64,000 nt of DNA from a virus. Under the pieces are notes generated by a model. It saw only the letters and a list, made by a program, of their open reading frames with translations, did no database searches and was not told the origin of the DNA. Below are positions 2,963 through 58,358 of the stretch, in pieces (position 1 is the stretch's first letter; every line of letters starts with the position of its first letter). The translations under genes were made by a program, and so were the position numbers. The DNA lies in the IMG/VR virus record IMGVR_UViG_3300045974_000041, positions 1-64,000 of that record; one strand, 5' to 3'.

Positions 2963-3206
2963 GCGAGAGTTTCTCCAAAAGTGTAAGACGTTGTTGAGCT
3001 ACAGTCGCATTGTGAGCTAAAGTGGTTGTTAAGTCAAGCTGATGTGACAAATCTTTTATCTTGCTAGTGTAGTATTCTTCTTTCAGCTTTTCCAGCTTGC
3101 TGTCACGCACTCCTAGCCAGTAGAGAGCCTTGCGAATAAAGTTTCTATTACGTTCATAGTAGAAAATAATATTAGCTGTTACAAGCTCTTCAGTCTTCAC
3201 TGTCAT
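2949..3206 (-). CDS. Hypothetical helical protein, 85 aa
   Basis: ATG 3206 is preceded by GAAGG and lies within the end of the upstream gene, so coupling is likely. The longer frame starting at 3245 lacks a site. The sequence is rich in Lys, Glu, Leu and Thr with heptad-like spacing, suggesting a helical or coiled-coil protein. Function unknown. Confidence 0.55.
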   Translation of the reverse strand: MTVKTEELVTANIIFYYERNRNFIRKALYWLGVRDSKLEKLKEEYYTSKIKDLSHQLDLTTTLAHNATVAQQRLTLLEKLSHGKS

Positions 3207-3555
3207 ACTTAACACCTTCATCTGAGTATTCACCACTGCCACCAATCAAGCTACGTGCTAGTTGCTTATCCTCTTCTGACATATCTTTCATATCACGTAG
3301 CACAGCCAACATAGCCTTGTCAGCAGCCCTTTGTTTAGCAGCCTTAGCAGCCATACGCTTGAGCATCTTACGACGCCTTACAATACCTCTAGCCTTGATA
3401 ATTCTTTCCACCATTCTACTATTACCTGTGTCACAATAGTAGGCCAGTTGCGCACTAATACGGGATGTAGGTGATTTCTCTACATGGTCTGCAAGTTCTT
3501 GCAATGTACAGGTTTGATAGTTGAGTTGGTTGGTCTTTTTAACATATTTACGCAT
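3190..3555 (-). CDS. Basic first gene of the leftward operon, 121 aa
   Basis: ATG 3555 follows GGAGAA at good spacing and is the first start after the promoter at 3587-3615; longer frames would include the promoter. Residues 60-90 form a run of Arg, Lys and Ala suited to nucleic-acid contact, and the C-terminus is acidic (Asp, Glu, Ser). No known family seen. Position suggests immediate-early expression. Confidence 0.65.
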   Translation of the reverse strand: MRKYVKKTNQLNYQTCTLQELADHVEKSPTSRISAQLAYYCDTGNSRMVERIIKARGIVRRRKMLKRMAAKAAKQRAADKAMLAVLRDMKDMSEEDKQLARSLIGGSGEYSDEGVKYDSED

Positions 3556-3586
3556 TGTTATTATTCTCCATAATGTAAAGAATACA

Positions 3587-3615
3587 ATATTAGCAGAAGT
3601 TTGCAAAAATGTCAA
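3587..3615 (-). promoter_or_regulatory. Sigma70-like promoter for the 3555-972 operon
   Basis: On the minus strand TTGACA (3615-3610) and TAATAT (3592-3587) are separated by 17 bases, close to consensus. The predicted start lies about 25 bases before the first gene of the operon. It diverges from the plus-strand promoter at 3732-3760. Confidence 0.8.
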
Positions 3616-3731
3616 TAGATTTGCACCAATGCTACGCCTTCGGCTTAAAAGCATGCACTCGATTAATCACATAAGTAACGTAACAATGCAAAATAAATAT
3701 TAAGGATTTCCCTAATATTGGTATCAAAAGC

Positions 3732-3760
3732 TTGACAAAGTGAAAATCTCATGATAAACT
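3732..3760 (+). promoter_or_regulatory. Sigma70-like promoter firing into a gene-free region
   Basis: TTGACA at 3732-3737 and TAAACT at 3755-3760 are spaced by 17 bases. No credible gene follows on the plus strand for over 1.3 kb, so its transcript would cover the repeat-rich and structured region up to about 5.1 kb. Confidence 0.6.
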
Positions 3761-4480
3761 GCGTCCTATGTGCCAGAGAGGTTACAGTGTATATTATACT
3801 CTCTTATACTACTTATAGTATCTAGTAGTATCTAGTAGTATCTAGTAGAGGTAATACTACTTATAGGCTACTGTAGGATGTAGTATGATACTACAAGGTC
3901 TATTAGCTACTGGTAGTATCTTACAAGACCTTGTAAGCTCTTGTAAGTAGTAATAGGCTACTCATACTACTTGTAACTCTGATAAAGTAATATTAACTAC
4001 TTATAGGCTCTCTAAGGAGTAATAGTCTACTAGAGTTTATTAGAACCTAGTAAGCCTTTTAGTACCTAGTAATGTATCTTACTACTCTCCTAATAGACGT
4101 TAGTAGGCTTACTGATACTTAAAAGAAATTGGTTAATTACAAGATATAAGTATTAATTATCTAGTAGAGCTTACTAGGTCTACTAGGTTGTAACAATGTT
4201 CTTGTAATGCTAGTAACAGGGATTGTTAGTGATTAGTAGACAGTTAGTAAGCCTACTACTAACTCCATAAGCCTAGTAAGCTCCTGTAAACTGTCATAGG
4301 GGGAGAGGATGATCGTAGCCTAACAGTAGCAGAGAGATTCCTCTCCTTTACAGGAATACTTACTAACTAGGTTTATTGCAAGTTAGTGATAAGGTGTTCC
4401 ACCAATTATCGCTGTTCTCCATAATAACCCTGCTAGAGCTGGAAATAAGGTGATAGGTTAGTAATATGTCGCATTCGCTC
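3761..4480. other. Gene-free region rich in TAGTA and CTAGTA motifs
   Basis: About 700 bases contain dozens of short TAGTA, CTACT and AAGCTC words on both strands and no usable reading frame. Word use is unlike the coding DNA around it. Possible roles are a replication origin, a protein-binding region or the 5' part of a long transcript from 3732-3760; the sequence alone does not decide. Confidence 0.6.
3816..3848. repeat. Three 10-bp direct repeats (TAGTATCTAG)
   Basis: TAGTATCTAG is repeated three times exactly and followed by TAG. Rotated, the window-start repeat reads TAGTACCTGT, identical at 7 of 10 positions. Both have a 10-bp period. Confidence 0.9.
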
Positions 4481-4525
4481 CTGTAGGTTTGTTTTTAAAG
4501 TCAAAAGCCGAGAAGGTAATAGTGG

Positions 4526-4922
4526 TGGTAGGATATTGCCAGTTGTTACAAGAGTTGGCACAACCTACCAAGGCTAAAGAGAGGTTAGCACCAACCATAC
4601 ACGTTAGGATAGTGCAGAAAAGAGCGATAGCGACTCTTGTACTGCCTTGCTACTGTGTCTACATGACGTAGAAAGTGGCATAGAAGGCTTTGAAAGCTAC
4701 TTGGAGCTACGAGTTTACCTTTCAAGCTTTCTATCGCCTTCTAGGGGTGTTTATGAGGGATTGAGCAATATCAGATTTTTGTGTTCGTGCAAAGATGTGG
4801 CAATATCCTGCCAGTCGCCTAATCGCTCTGGCTCGGTTTGGCCGCGCTCATTAGGCTCTATGGCAAATTGCCAGTGGTGGGATGTTCGTACTAGAACATT
4901 CGGATACGTGCAAAGCTTTCCG
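4526..4922 (+). ncRNA. Candidate structured non-coding RNA
   Basis: Successive hairpins fill this gene-free stretch. TGGTAGG (4526) pairs with CCTACCA (4564) and encloses TGCCA/TGGCA. GCTAA (4573) pairs with TTAGC (4585). GCAG plus AAGAG (4614-4624) pairs with CTCTT plus CTGC (4634-4645). ATAGAA and GCTTTGAAAG (4680-4696) pair with CTTTCAAGC and TTCTAT (4719-4734). GCCTAAT (4817) pairs with ATTAGGC (4850). ATGTTC (4882) pairs with GAACAT (4894), and CGGA (4901) with TCCG (4919). Strand is inferred from the promoter at 3732. Large structured RNAs are known from phages (for example GOLLD and ROOL, often near tRNAs), but I cannot assign this to a known class. Confidence 0.45.
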
Positions 4923-4938
4923 ATCTCCTAGTAAGCCA

Positions 4939-4976
4939 TTTTAAGGCGTTTTAAGGCGTTTTAAGGAGTTTTAAGC
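4939..4976. repeat. 10-bp period repeat (TTTTAAGGCG), about 3.8 copies
   Basis: TTTTAAGGCG occurs twice, then TTTTAAGGAG, then TTTTAAGC. The 10-bp step matches the other two arrays in the left end of the window although the sequence differs. It lies directly after the structured region. Confidence 0.85.
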
Positions 4977-5058
4977 CTTCCAAGCTACCCTTGCCTATCT
5001 ACCACTGTTATAAAGCCCTGTAGGGTTGTTTCTGTGTCATCTAGCTATGTGTTTGTGC

Positions 5059-5101
5059 AAAAAGAAAAGCCCTGCAATCCGTGTTAGGGATATACAGGGC
5101 T
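5059..5101 (-). terminator. Terminator closing the 5.1-9.0 kb leftward operon
   Basis: AGCCCTG (5068-5074) pairs with CAGGGCT (5095-5101), and a second CAGGGCT copy lies at 5105. On the minus strand the hairpin is followed by UUUCUUUUU. It sits just past the stop of the last gene at 5129. It might also stop plus-strand transcripts from the gene-free region, though the U-tract there is weak. Confidence 0.7.
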
Positions 5102-5128
5102 GTACAGGGCTTTGTAACGTCGATGTAG

Positions 5129-5686
5129 CTACAATACACTTGTAATGGCAGCAATTTCAACTTCCTTTAGCCACTCTATGAGTTGTTCGTGTCTTTCTTG
5201 CCATCCTGTGTCTGGTCGAATTTTAGCAAGACGGGAGAATTTGCTATCGTTCGAGGATAGGATGTGCTTTCCAACACTATCCCACCAGTGTAAAAGGTTT
5301 TTGGAGTAGTTTTGCATTGCCAAGCTTTCCCATTCGTGCAAAATAATATTGGGATGCAAAATAATATGTTTACCACCCTTTAAGTATATTGATGCAAAAT
5401 CAAAGTTTTCATATAATTCATAATACTCCCAAAGTTGTTCCACAACCTTCTTACGTAATTCCCATACTGGTACATTAATTCCATGCTTACTTTTAACTAA
5501 TAAAAGGTTATGACGGAGCAATTTAACAAAATCACTCTTTGTAATCCTGTATAATCCACTAATGTTGTTGTAATTTTCAAGCATATTCTGTCCTATAAAA
5601 CTTTGTACTAATTCGTAAAGAACACTTTTACCGTATCTAGGATAACCTAGAAAATTTACATTTGGTTCCATTTTAACAAAACTCAT
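5129..5686 (-). CDS. Hypothetical protein with a P-loop-like motif, 185 aa
   Basis: Residues 13-21 read L-G-Y-P-R-Y-G-K-S, which fits the Walker A pattern GxxxxGK[ST] near the N-terminus, where it occurs in small kinases and ATPases. I see no clear Walker B. The rest is helical with many aromatic residues. It could be a phage nucleotide kinase-like protein, but the match rests on one short motif. Overlaps the upstream gene by 14 bases, so the start at ATG 5686 is coupled; ATG 5671 is possible. Confidence 0.55.
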   Translation of the reverse strand: MSFVKMEPNVNFLGYPRYGKSVLYELVQSFIGQNMLENYNNISGLYRITKSDFVKLLRHNLLLVKSKHGINVPVWELRKKVVEQLWEYYELYENFDFASIYLKGGKHIILHPNIILHEWESLAMQNYSKNLLHWWDSVGKHILSSNDSKFSRLAKIRPDTGWQERHEQLIEWLKEVEIAAITSVL

Positions 5687-5876
5687 CTAAATCGTATATC
5701 ATCCATTTTAATGGTGAAAGCCCTAGCTTATTACGCTCCACTTGTATCAATCCCCACTCCATTGTTTGTTCTTCTACCCATTTGTCACGAGCTTCCACGC
5801 TTTCAAAATCTTGTAGCACTGATTCGTAATTTCCATACTCATTTTCACGTAGCACTACAGTAATAATGTTTTGCAT
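5673..5876 (-). CDS. Hypothetical protein, 67 aa
   Basis: ATG 5876 has TAGGAGAATGT just upstream; a longer frame would run through the hairpin at 5916-5943. Acidic, with a C-terminal W-M-I-Y-D-L-D-E segment. No family recognised. It follows a repeated hairpin that may mark an independently processed or partly terminated transcript. Confidence 0.55.
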   Translation of the reverse strand: MQNIITVVLRENEYGNYESVLQDFESVEARDKWVEEQTMEWGLIQVERNKLGLSPLKWMIYDLDEFC

Positions 5877-5915
5877 ACATTCTCCTAAGTTAGTATTGCT
5901 GAGTACAAATAGTAA

Positions 5916-8990: not shown

Positions 8991-9019
8991 ATGATAGGAC
9001 AATATCAATCGTATGTCAA
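8991..9019 (-). promoter_or_regulatory. Sigma70-like promoter for the 8954-5129 operon
   Basis: On the minus strand TTGACA (9019-9014) and TATCAT (8996-8991) are spaced by 17 bases. It diverges from the rightward promoter at 9028-9055, so the two compete in one short control region that may switch between early and late programmes. Confidence 0.75.
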
Positions 9020-9076: not shown

Positions 9077-9547
9077 ATGACACAAGCTATTGATAGTATA
9101 GAAGATATTTATGACGAGAATGAGCCAGAAAGTAGTGGCGGGGAGATGAAACCTGCTACTGAATTGAGCTTTATTCGCACAGAACAACATGACTTAGCAT
9201 TTCTATATAAAGGGTTGAAGGCTAACAGCCAAAAAGCTATTCGCAGATTGGTGTTAGGTATGGAAAGCGAGAATGAGAGGTTAGCAATTGATTGTGCTAA
9301 GACTCTACTGTCTTTCCAAATGGAAGTTAGTAAAGAAATCAATGCAGATATTATGCAACGAATGATACAGGAAGTAAAGAACAAAGGTGCTAATCGGGTA
9401 ATGAAGGACATTATGGATTATGACTACGAGGATGAAAGCTTAACACCTGAAGAAGTTGAGCAGGTTGAAAAGAAGAAAGCTAAAAGAGTTAGGTCTAATG
9501 CTCCCATTATTAATTTCTCAAAAGTAGGAAAGGTGGAAGCATTATGA
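9077..9547 (+). CDS. Candidate small terminase subunit, 156 aa
   Basis: Strong AGGAGG site before ATG 9077. Residues 1-30 are acidic. The middle (about 35-105) is helical, with a K-A-N-S-Q-K-A-I-R-R stretch and a helix rich in Lys and Glu. The C-terminus is acidic then basic. Size, helical nature and position as the first rightward gene upstream of the large terminase suit the DNA-recognition subunit, but no diagnostic motif is seen, and a separate gene and tRNAs lie between. Confidence 0.5.
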   Translation: MTQAIDSIEDIYDENEPESSGGEMKPATELSFIRTEQHDLAFLYKGLKANSQKAIRRLVLGMESENERLAIDCAKTLLSFQMEVSKEINADIMQRMIQEVKNKGANRVMKDIMDYDYEDESLTPEEVEQVEKKKAKRVRSNAPIINFSKVGKVEAL

Positions 9548-10105: not shown

Positions 10106-10181
10106 GCTGTAGTAGCTCAGTTGGTAGAGCATCGCACTTGTAATGCGGTGGTCGAGGGTTCGAGTCCTTCCTACAGCACCA
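10106..10181 (+). tRNA. tRNA-Thr(UGU)
   Basis: Acceptor GCTGTAG/CTACAGC, D-arm GCTC...GAGC, anticodon loop with TGT, T-loop TTCGAGT and an encoded CCA all fit the standard cloverleaf. Confidence 0.93.
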
Positions 10182-10867: not shown

Positions 10868-13336
10868 ATGGGTAGACCTCGTAAGGAGCCAAGGCCGAGG
10901 TTCGAGCCTGCTTCTGAAACGCAGTTGAAATTTTTGCAATGTCAAAGTAAATTTATTATTTATGGTGGCGGTTGAAAGTCCAGTGCTCCACCTTAAACAC
11001 TCTTCTAATTGCTGGAATAGCTTGTTAGCAAGCCAATCAGCAGCGAAGCCTTTAATTAGGAACGTTCAACGACTAGAGCAGAAGCTCGTAGTGCTAAGTG
11101 GCACGAAACGGAGAGGGGCTTGGTAGCCTAAGATATAGTCTGATCTGCATAGTGATATGCAGCTGTGGATAATTCCACGGGGGTAGATTAACGACCTACC
11201 TTGAACAAGCCACAAAGGCTGGCAGTGGCAAGTCCCACTTAGCACTAATGTCAGTGCTACAGTATATCACAGACCCTAACTTTAGGGGAGTGTTTATTCG
11301 ACAAACTAACACACAATTAACACAAGCTGGTGGTTTGTTTCCAGAGGCTTGTGATATGTACAAATACTTTGGTGCTAAAAGTAAGCAAATGCCTGTACCA
11401 ACTATCACGTTCCCTTCAGGAGCACAAGTACAATTTAAAGTGTGTGCAGACCCTAGAGATACAAAGAACTTTGACGGTGGTCAATACAGTTTGGTAGTAT
11501 TCGACGAAGCTCAATGGCATTCACAGGCTGAAATTAGCTATTTGGAATCTCGTATTCGTTCAAAAGCCAAAGCACCTCATAGAATGATTTGTACTTGCAA
11601 CCCTTTGCGTGATAGTTTTTTGTATAAGTTTGTAGAATGGTATCTAGACCCTGAGACGGGGATTCCAAAACCAGAACTTTCTGGTACTGAACGTTGGTAT
11701 GCTCAGTATAACGGAGAATATGTATTTGGTGCAACAGCTGAAGAGTTGATAGAAAAATATGGAGATAGGGCAAAACCTCAGACATATACATTTATTGCTG
11801 CTACGATTTATGATAATCCTATATTAATTCGTAACGTACCAGAATATTTAACACGTCTTGAGAACTTGAAACGTACTGAAAGGGAACGTCTACTATTAGG
11901 TAGTTGGCATGCTAGAGAAGAAGCCGCAGGCTATTTTAAACGTGATTGGGTAGAAGTGGTTGACCATCCACCTATTAACCCTGTATCAGTTGTTCGCAGT
12001 TGGGACTTGGCTGCAACACTTGCCACAGAATCAAATCGTGACCCTGACTACACTGCAACAGTTAAAATGTCTCGTGACAAATATGGAACATATTATATTG
12101 AGCATGCAGATAGATTCCGAAAACTTACAGATGGCGTACTAAAGGAAATCGTAAGAGTTGCAAAGGAAGATGGCATTGAAAACCTCACAGCCATTACAAT
12201 CCCTCGTGACGGCGGGGCTGGTGGTAAAACTGCCAATTCTTTCTACACTAGAGTATTGGCAGAACAGGGTGTACCAGTTAGAAGTGTTGTTATGTCTGGT
12301 CACTCTGGTAAAGTACAACGCTTTTTACCATTCTCTTCATTATGTGAAAGTGGTAATGTTAAAGTGGTAAGAGGTGAATGGAATGAAGCTTTCTTTAATG
12401 AATTAGAGAGTTTCGACGGTGGCAGAAAAGGTCATGACGATTAAAATTGGTCGTCAATAAACCTATTGAATTCAAGGAATCTCTTCGATAGAATTATCCT
12501 AGACAATCTTGAGCGAAGCCCTTATAATATAAGGGAACGTGCAACGACTAGAGCGAAAGCTCGTAGTGTCAAGTGACACGAAGCGGTAGGCTCTCTCAAA
12601 GCCTTGAGAGAGATGATATAGTCTGATCTGCATAGTGATATGCAGCATTTACTAAAAATAAAGGAATCTTTATGAAAGTCTCAGAAGTTTACACAAACAA
12701 TGCAGGACAGCAGTTTGAAATTGTAGCCATAGTTGGTAAAAAAGCTTTGGTAAGATTTTTAGAAACATCTTCCACTAGGTTAGCTTATAGGGAAAATATC
12801 ACTGCTGGAAAAGTTAAAGACCTCTATTCCAAATCCACTAATGGGGTTGGGTACTTAGGAGAATTTGAGAAAAATCAGTATTGGAAGCAGGCTATGCAGT
12901 TGTGGCGCAATATGATGAAGCGCTGCTACACCGATGACCCTAAAGGGTATAAATACAAAGGTACAACTGTAGATGCTCATTGGCATTGTTTTGCTAATTT
13001 CCATAGAGATTTACCAAAACTGAAAAACTTTTCAAACTGGCTAGCCTTCTACGAAGGTAAGTCAAAAGTTCAATATAACCTTGATAAAGATTTGCAAGTA
13101 GGTAGTAACAATATCTACAGTCCAAATACTTGCGGGTTTGAACTTGAGAGTGTAAACAAGGCCGCTGGCAAAGGCGGCAAGAGACTGGTAGATGGGTCTT
13201 GGGTAACGTCCAAGGCTTAACATAAATGTATGTCGATTGTTGCTCTGATGCTTTTAACACCCTATCAAAACAACTACAAATCCCGACCTTTTCAATACCA
13301 ACATTAGCACAAGCCTCTGTAATTCCACGCCTGTAG
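10868..13336 (+). CDS. terL: Large terminase subunit, three exons, 478 aa
   Basis: Exons 10868-10972, 11218-12441 and 13229-13336 join in frame. Together they encode an ATPase-nuclease that pumps DNA into the prohead. The spliced Walker A is G-G-G-A-G-S-G-K-S (residues 33-41), Walker B V-V-F-D-E-A is near residue 127, and the RNase H-like nuclease begins at S-W-D-L near 297 and ends with the H-D-D-Y-V-D motif at 441-446. Exon 1 is split from exon 2 inside Walker A, and exon 2 from exon 3 directly after the nuclease Asp codons. AAAAGGAG precedes ATG 10868. Without splicing only a fragment would be made. Confidence 0.93.
10973..11217 (+). ncRNA. Group I intron 1, in terL Walker A
   Basis: The exon ends in T and the intron ends in G, as group I introns do. 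The core words CAACGACTAGAG (near 11070) and GATATAGTCTGATC (11132) are present, with complementary GACTA/TAGTC. Removal restores the P-loop frame exactly. 245 bases, no internal gene, so mobility would depend on an enzyme in trans. Confidence 0.88.
12442..13228 (+). ncRNA. Group I intron 2, in terL nuclease motif
   Basis: The exon end GACGAT (12436-12441) pairs with the internal guide GTCGTC (12450-12455), placing the required U-G wobble at the splice site. The core words GTGCAACGACTA and GATATAGTCTGATC follow, and the last base is G. It carries a 182-residue homing-endonuclease-like gene near its 3' end. Confidence 0.9.
12672..13220 (+). CDS. Intron-encoded homing endonuclease-like protein, 182 aa
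   Basis: AAAGGAATCTTT precedes ATG 12672 within intron 2. Residues near 78-105 (L-W-R-N-M-M-K-R-C-Y ... W-H-C-F-A-N-F) and near 140-158 (L-D-K-D-L ... N-x-Y-S-P-x-T-C-G-F) match the pattern of HNH/AP2-like phage endonucleases that I know as free-standing or intron-borne. Its role would be cutting intronless alleles to spread intron 2. The gene ends only 8 bases before the 3' splice site. The nuclease class is inferred; catalytic residues are not proven. Confidence 0.75.
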   Translation: MKVSEVYTNNAGQQFEIVAIVGKKALVRFLETSSTRLAYRENITAGKVKDLYSKSTNGVGYLGEFEKNQYWKQAMQLWRNMMKRCYTDDPKGYKYKGTTVDAHWHCFANFHRDLPKLKNFSNWLAFYEGKSKVQYNLDKDLQVGSNNIYSPNTCGFELESVNKAAGKGGKRLVDGSWVTSKA

Positions 13337-56349: not shown

Positions 56350-58358
56350 TTAATAATCCGTGTGATTCGCTTCCAACCACGACCTCTTATCCCACAACTG
56401 ATGAGACACGTTATCGTAATAATAGTCTCCACATGGCCCTGTCACACCGTTATCTCGATTCTTTGAGATGTAGGCTTTAGTTGTGTTACGCACTACAGGG
56501 TCATCTGCCATCTTATCACGAACCAGCAAGATATTCAAAGCAGCACTCTTGAAAATGGTACTGCTGCCAGCAAAATCTTCTTCACTAATCATAGCACCTT
56601 CACTGTTTTGCTTTGCACCACCACCACTCTTACGGACATGGTTGATGTTAATAAAGGTGATATTGTGAGACTTGATAAGCGCCTTCTGCCATTTCAAGAA
56701 TAAAGATTGATCTTCAATAGACAGCCCGTCAAGAATATCCTGAAGAGGGTCTAGTACAATCACCTTACAATCACAAGTGATTACAAGCTGCTCTACAGTA
56801 TTTTGTAAATCAGCGATAGTGCCATCACGGTCATCTACTAAGTGCCAACGGTGACTGCCATCATCGCGAAAGAACAGTTCCTTTTGCGCTTGCTTTACCT
56901 CATCACTCTGCAAATAAGCCATCTTCTCTTCACGAGAACTCATGTTTGAAATCTTCTTACCTAAGTGACGAGATAGCATAGACAAACCATAACTACCTGC
57001 ATTTAATTCCATACTAACCACACCTACACGGTGAGGGCTGTTAAAAGCTAGATAGTACACAATCGTGTCTACATACACAGTTTTACCCAACATTTGTGTT
57101 CAAGATAGGTCGTTAATCTATCCCCGCCAATTGGCAGCTATATGTCACCATATAGATCAGACTATATCATCCTCTCAAGGAGAGGGTATGCGCTTCCACC
57201 TACTTAGGTGTACTCCATTTCTGGATAGTCGTTGCACGTTCCTCACTGTTGTAAGGCTTCGCTCAGGATTGTCTCATTACTGTGATTTGAGAGTTTCCCT
57301 GAATTCACATACTTCTCAATAAGTGTCGCCACTTAAAGGGGCTATTAAAAACCGCTCCCAGCACCAATGTTACATATACGTCCCAAACTTAACCCGCCTG
57401 TCATTTCATTAAGCTGTGACATGAACGGTGGGAACATAATCTTTTCAACATCTACTTCTTCTAGGATTTTACTTGCTAAATCCCCACTACCAACAATACC
57501 CACTGGTACATGCTGTCGAGCCTTGAAATAAGCATTGATAAATTCCTTCTGCTTACCAGCCTCTAATAGCTCATTCACATCCTTAGCATTGAAACTGGCA
57601 ATATACACTTTACCCTTTGGCAACACCTTGACAGCTTTATCAGTAGCTTCTTTGCCAGCTTCATCATTATCAAAGATTAGAATGATTTTGTCAAACCTGT
57701 CAAACCATTCATAATGAGCTTTCAGTTGTTTCATGCTACCTGTTTCACCAGTGACAGGACTCACTACAGGGGTTTCTTCACCTGTCCAACCACTTTGAAC
57801 AGCATATTGCACAAGCATATCACGAGCAGACATGCAATCAATTTCACCAGCTGTTACAACACATACCTTACTGTTGGAATTCCTATAGCGAAACAGTCCA
57901 AACAATTCGCTAGTATTTCCCACCTTGCCAATAGTTGAAAAGCTTTTAGGTAGCTTTCTCACTTTGAATCCAGCGATACTACCCTCTTCAAAGATTGGGT
58001 AGAAGTGTGCTAAAGGCTTACCATCCTCTTCACCCACCTTAGTACGAACTCCATACCACTTATATGTCAAGTCACTAATACCCCGTACACCAAAACCTTT
58101 GGTAGTGGTGAACTGTTTTAGCTCATCCAATTCTTCATCTGTAATCACTTCTGCTGCCATAAAACTACTCTCCCAATCAATGTCTTCATAGCCCTGTTCG
58201 GCTGTCAGCTTGCCAAGGTAATCGCTGCTAGGCTTTGTATAACCACAAGAGAAGCAATGACTGCCCCTCTCATCGCCATATACGTGCAGATTGTTACGAT
58301 GCCTATCTCTACCATTGGCAGCACAGCGAGGGCATTGTGCCTTGTACTCTTCTGCCAT
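56350..58358 (-). CDS. Primase-helicase, T7 gp4-like, two exons, 582 aa
   Basis: Exons 58358-57351 and 57090-56350 join after excision of a group I intron. Zinc ribbon C-P-R-C ... C-F-S-C near residues 8-39, TOPRIM motifs G-E-I-D near 170 and D-N-D-E-A-G near 226, Walker A G-A-G-S-G-L-G-K-T near 332-340 (formed only after splicing), Walker B V-I-V-L-D-P near residue 455 and an N-H-V-R-K. It unwinds the fork and primes the lagging strand. Unspliced it would stop one codon after the splice site. Confidence 0.93.
57091..57350 (-). ncRNA. Group I intron 3, in primase-helicase Walker A
   Basis: On the minus strand the upstream exon ends AGCGGT and the intron ends in G. Core words GTGCAACGACTA and GATATAGTCTGATC are present and near-identical to the terL introns. 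Splicing restores G-S-G-L-G-K-T. 260 bases without a gene, so it would need an endonuclease from elsewhere to move. Confidence 0.88.

Follow-up and report, generated by a model that had tools for sequence, protein, structure and literature searches.

A stretch of viral DNA between two leftward genes carries a promoter that faces no gene, and we propose, with a probability of about one half, that it is transcribed rightward into a lineage-specific noncoding RNA of around 1.3 kb with a folded 3' domain. The promoter without a gene, the strand skew, the excess of folding and the absence of a coding signal fit a noncoding RNA, as the initial annotation had proposed. Against this stand the lack of a homologue, a weak rightward terminator, the resemblance of part of the region to a DNA repeat cluster, and folding z-scores for 4496-4935 that differ little between the strands (-3.4 and -3.0), as is expected of inverted repeats in DNA. 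The case that the candidate works as an RNA is circumstantial.

A promoter facing gene-free DNA

The window, i.e., the whole stretch analysed, comprises positions 1-64000 of a virus record of 64,970 bases. The capsid protein of this phage is 44-47% identical to those of Limnohabitans phage DC31, Curvibacter phage P26059A and the Pseudomonas KPP10/PAK_P3 group, and the closest relatives found in IMG/VR have capsid proteins at most 67% identical. The gene order includes PhoH, a Clp-like protease, terminase and structural genes, and from our own reading of the translations the phage presumably also encodes a family A DNA polymerase, a ribonucleotide reductase and a DNA ligase. The window contains three group I introns (10917-11162, 12386-12645 and 57138-57360), of which two seemingly interrupt the terminase large-subunit gene and the third the helicase-primase gene. 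None of them lies within 3557-5128, and a group I intron (RF00028) was discarded as an identity for the region.

The region is free of genes for about 1.5 kb, between leftward genes at 3190-3556/3654 and 5129-5686. An internal ATG near 3556 is, by inspection, the probable start of the left gene, which extends the gap to approximately 3557-5128 (1.57 kb), more than first annotated. The claim that this DNA is gene-free was borne out: the only ORF of at least 61 aa in the gap (4647-4931, + strand, TTG start, 94 aa) has a codon log-likelihood of -16.4, compared with a median of about +0.2 per codon for called genes, and searches with Pfam, PHROG and tblastn found no relatives of it. A coding signal was absent from every frame of the gap and no protein remnant was detected. 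We reject a protein-coding gene or its remnant, since no frame has coding bias or a homologue. The richness of 3767-4370 in stop codons is accounted for by its dinucleotide content and was dropped as a special feature.

The rightward promoter (Table 1) matches the consensus at 10 of 12 positions, with a predicted transcription start near 3767. It was correctly described as facing no gene: the next gene on the + strand starts at 9077, which leaves 5.3 kb without a gene on that strand; this is the strongest ground for expecting a noncoding transcript. The record has nine rightward sites where a perfect TTGACA is followed by an acceptable -10 element, 3732 among them. Many of the sites with a perfect TTGACA are sensibly placed, for example a divergent pair at 9019/9028, one at the tRNA cluster (10065) and two before genes (13399 and 21782). 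The promoter at 3732 and the site before the tRNA cluster have the core gcTTGACAaag in common. The leftward promoter bounds this divergent intergenic region on the left.

The composition of the strands points in the same direction. The sense strands of the phage genes have a skew of G over C (mean +0.145, 92% positive), and the + strand of the region has values of +0.10 over 3767-5035 and +0.14 over 4371-4935, as against about -0.2 in both flanking leftward genes and in the other large gap (1-1140). This is modest, independent support for rightward transcription. At the far end of the region, the hairpin at 5066-5118 is followed on the minus strand by TTTTCTTTTT, which marks it as the terminator of gene 5129-5686; it is primarily the terminator of this opposing gene and may also stop rightward transcripts.

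Table 1. Features of the gene-free region and its edges, in window coordinates.
Feature	Position	Strand	Description
Leftward sigma-70-like promoter	3615-3587	-	TTGACA...TAATAT, 17-nt spacer; serves gene 3190-3556
Rightward sigma-70-like promoter	3732-3760	+	TTGACA (3732-3737), 17-nt spacer, TG-extended TAAACT
Block of TAGTA/TACTA/CTAG words, direct and inverted	3767-4370	+	35% GC
Strongly folded domain	4496-4935	+	About ten predicted hairpins, 440 nt
Long-range inverted repeat, 5' arm	4526-4541	+	TGGTAGGATATTGCCA; pairs locally (4564-4570) or with 4798-4813
Bulged helix	4680-4696/4719-4734	+	16 bp, one bulge, inner 5-bp hairpin; mean probability 0.89
Long-range inverted repeat, 3' arm	4798-4813	+	TGGCAATATCCTGCCA; partner of 4526-4541
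10-mer array	4939-4975		TTTTAAGGCG, 3.7 direct copies; preceded by CCTAGTAAGC at 4927-4936
Weak terminator-like hairpin, rightward	5012-5030	+	AAGCCCTGTAGGGTT then GTTTCTG; -5.7 kcal/mol
Hairpin	5066-5118		AAAAGCCCTG...CAGGGCTTT; z -3.6 on -, -2.1 on +

Folding and repeats

The domain at 4496-4935 has a minimum energy of -148.1 kcal/mol, compared with -127.3 +/- 6.2 in shuffles (z -3.37), and none of 100 shuffles folds as well; the complement strand has a z of -2.97. The chain of at least seven hairpins initially described within 4526-4922 becomes about ten in this fold, where most helices have mean pairing probabilities of 0.73-0.99 (about 0.74-0.99 for those at 4606-4647, 4649-4679, 4680-4734, 4771-4800 and 4874-4907). 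The 16-bp bulged helix at 4680-4734 was recovered and is the best supported single element among the predicted ones, with a z of -5.2 when 4672-4742 is folded alone. The direct repeat CGTGCAAAG near 4786 and 4907 exists, but it is at chance level, as we estimate that about three such 9-mer repeats are expected in 1.3 kb.

The two arms of the long-range inverted repeat match at 15 of 16 positions, and one shuffle in 100 has an inverted repeat as good. When their pairing is forced, the alternative fold has an energy of -146.6 kcal/mol and keeps most of the inner hairpins. The near equality of the two predicted folds (-148.1 and -146.6 kcal/mol) opens the possibility of a two-state RNA.

In a genome-wide scan, where the 5% level for 200-nt windows lies at z -2.8, the single 200-nt windows of the region are not extreme. 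When means are taken over 1.4 kb and ranked from the lowest, the region comes first on the minus strand and third on the plus strand, where another stretch of similar rank contains a group I intron. The domain thus folds better than its shuffles and moderately so against the genome: the excess of folding is clear but not extreme, and it is similar on both strands.

The initial annotation had overlooked the block of repeated words that precedes this domain. Within 400 nt, the block has 80 inverted 8-mer pairs (19.5 +/- 7.0 in dinucleotide shuffles) and 84 direct ones (18.5 +/- 6.4 in shuffles); the next best 600-bp stretch outside the region has 14 inverted pairs, so that the block exceeds anything elsewhere in the window five-fold. 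The words vary around CTAGTA, CTTGTAAG and CCTAGTAAGC, and the density of CTAG in 3770-4370 is about five times that of the window as a whole. CCTAGTAAGC occurs at 4046 and 4272, inverted at 4169, and a fourth time just before the 10-mer array; these four exact copies are the only ones in the window and all lie inside the gene-free region. The block has folding z-scores of -3.3 on the plus strand and -5.9 on the minus strand, the latter folding better. The symmetry between strands of the block, and of most of its folding, makes a role at the level of DNA possible, as an origin or as binding sites, and 3770-4370 could as readily be taken for a DNA repeat cluster as for an RNA.

Arrays with a 10-bp period are found at 3816-3848, 4939-4975 and 5093-5111, and also at the left end of the record, where positions 1-137 of the window hold 13.7 perfect copies of the 10-mer TGTTAGTACC. 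The end of a related contig (L003) has 5.1 perfect copies of a 25-mer, and tandem arrays of this kind in DNA without genes are a probable cause of assembly breaks in the phage group. IMG/VR contigs contain 26 exact copies of the 18-mer TTTTAAGGCGTTTTAAGG, from the array at 4939-4975, and 24 of these are intergenic. In INPHARED, 58 records were matched by a 30-nt query made from the repeat and 40 by its reversed control, the latter mostly in genes. The intergenic enrichment of TTTTAAGGCG repeats is partly trivial because the unit carries stop codons.

Relatives and known RNA families

No Rfam family was found in the region when the whole window was scanned with cmscan (4227 families, gathering thresholds), and a scan of 3600-5200 at E-values up to 5 gave chance-level matches only, none of them to ROOL or GOLLD, in agreement with the initial statement that neither was recognised. 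A BLAST search of INPHARED and PLSDB with the region gave only short chance or repeat matches. Scans of IMG/VR with the flanking genes found no homologue of the region, and those with DNA patterns of its fold and repeats found no relative, the matches to GGCAATATCCTGCCAGT being in unrelated sequence. Scans of GTDB with the gene at 5129-5686 and with the capsid gene found none. This flanking gene is itself an orphan, with no homologue in any collection searched. Single-sequence covariance models of two subdomains (4604-4736 and 4768-4910), which are mostly sequence models and thus a weak test, recovered only the window itself when run against 25 other phage records. Since no recognisable counterpart was found in related phages, a functional RNA, if real, is not common to them. 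The best antisense match within the phage's own genome is 14 nt long (E 0.3), and no targets were found there.

In the related phages, gaps of 0.6-1.5 kb without genes lie left of the PhoH operon, and several of them adjoin a serine recombinase gene. Going by our reading of its translation, the counterpart of this gene here lies at the right end of the record. In position and in A/T tracts, the gaps of the relatives match 1-1140 of the window better than 3557-5128. Two of them (L035, 2744-3886, and L036, 1897-2850) are 69% identical over 191 bp and contain the DnaA-box-like TTATCCACA, which suggests that this common stretch, rather than 3.6-5.1 kb of the window, is a candidate replication origin of the phage group. 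Folding like that of 4496-4935 is absent from gap 1-1140 and from most gene-free gaps of the relatives, the exception being an AT-rich gap that adjoins a serine recombinase gene (L038, reverse complement, 5262-5887). This gap has 27 inverted words (10.8 +/- 4.5 expected) and strong folding on both strands, in a style like that of 3770-4370.

Among described RNAs, ROOL is likewise large, ornate and encoded by phages or prophages, without known function, and it forms a homo-oligomeric cage; its covariance model gives no match here, even at an E-value of 5. GOLLD is a large phage RNA with a less conserved 5' part and a conserved 3' part (PMC12286853). The candidate resembles this layout, with a repeat-like 5' part and a compact 3' part, but the GOLLD covariance model does not match it, and the likeness is known from one sequence. 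Both ROOL and GOLLD are often found near tRNA islands (PMC12286853), whereas the region is about 5 kb from the nearest tRNAs, which form a cluster starting at 10106. Pseudomonas phage PAK_P3 (NC_022970), with a related capsid gene (44.7% aa identity), has small and antisense RNAs annotated from RNA-seq; those seen in the part of its annotation considered here are sRNAs of 83-134 nt or are antisense to genes, and none is a gene-free unit of 1.3 kb. Direct tests with the covariance models thus exclude ROOL, GOLLD and group I introns, and the locus is best listed as an orphan candidate outside all families.

Alternative readings and significance

The main rival is an RNA-primed origin, which is compatible with transcription. 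The region would be a replication origin or another replication site at the level of DNA, where the repeats at 3770-4370 and 4939-4975 bind proteins and a rightward transcript, if there is one, forms an R-loop that primes the family A DNA polymerase. RNA II of plasmid ColE1 and the R-loops at T4 origins are such origin transcripts. As in the candidate, a promoter, repeats and an untranslated, structured RNA share a single gene-free region in such systems, and in the case of ColE1 the replicon uses a family A polymerase, as the phage presumably does; the likeness seen is one of layout rather than of sequence, and the region has no known priming site. The exceptional, strand-symmetric density of inverted and direct words, the arrays with 10-bp spacing and the promoter beside repeat-rich DNA of 35% GC argue for an origin, as does the DnaA-box-like motif in the two related gaps, which indicates that gaps of this group may hold origins. 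A DnaA-dependent origin is disfavoured by the lack of a TTATNCACA box within 3557-5128, and gap 1-1140, whose A/T tracts are like those beside the recombinase gene of the relatives, fits the gap of the relatives better by position. Genome-wide cumulative skew has no turning point at the region, and an origin does not need the compact folding of 4496-4935. We consider an origin a serious but rather unlikely explanation.

The confinement of CCTAGTAAGC to the region and the local density of CTAG could also reflect clustered sites where a regulator or a packaging protein binds, with transcription being incidental. This is improbable in our view, as the other promoters of the phage have no such cluster beside them and the folded part would be left unexplained. 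Least probable is that the region is nonfunctional, either leftover or expanding DNA made of repeats grown by slippage and of remnants of lost genes. The perfect tandem arrays elsewhere in the gene-free DNA of this phage group and the lack of conservation in the collections searched are in its favour; the consistent rightward skew, the good promoter, the non-random long-range pairing and the lack of any protein remnant speak against it.

Under the favoured reading of a noncoding transcript, 1) transcription by the RNA polymerase of the host, with the main sigma factor, would start near 3767; 2) the product would be an untranslated RNA of about 1.3 kb, ending in the hairpins at 5012-5118; 3) its first 600 nt would be rich in UAGUA and pair into long hairpins; 4) its 3' 440 nt would form a compact domain; and 5) this domain could switch between a series of individual hairpins and a state that the 4526-4541/4798-4813 helix closes. 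The molecule would work at the level of RNA, and its most likely role during infection would be that of a scaffold or a sequestering molecule, which we guess by analogy with the roles proposed for other large phage RNAs. That it represents a new class of large phage RNA, untranslated over 1.3 kb, with UAGUA repeats in its 5' half and two states of its 3' domain, and unrelated to described families, is a tentative and somewhat doubtful proposal.

We know of no mapped origin in this phage group, and if the region is an origin instead, it would provide a testable replication start for the group. To our knowledge, phages have few large structured RNAs, and none of known function. If the region is transcribed, it would add a further, unrelated large RNA, which would suggest that phages invent such RNAs repeatedly and would offer a new test case.
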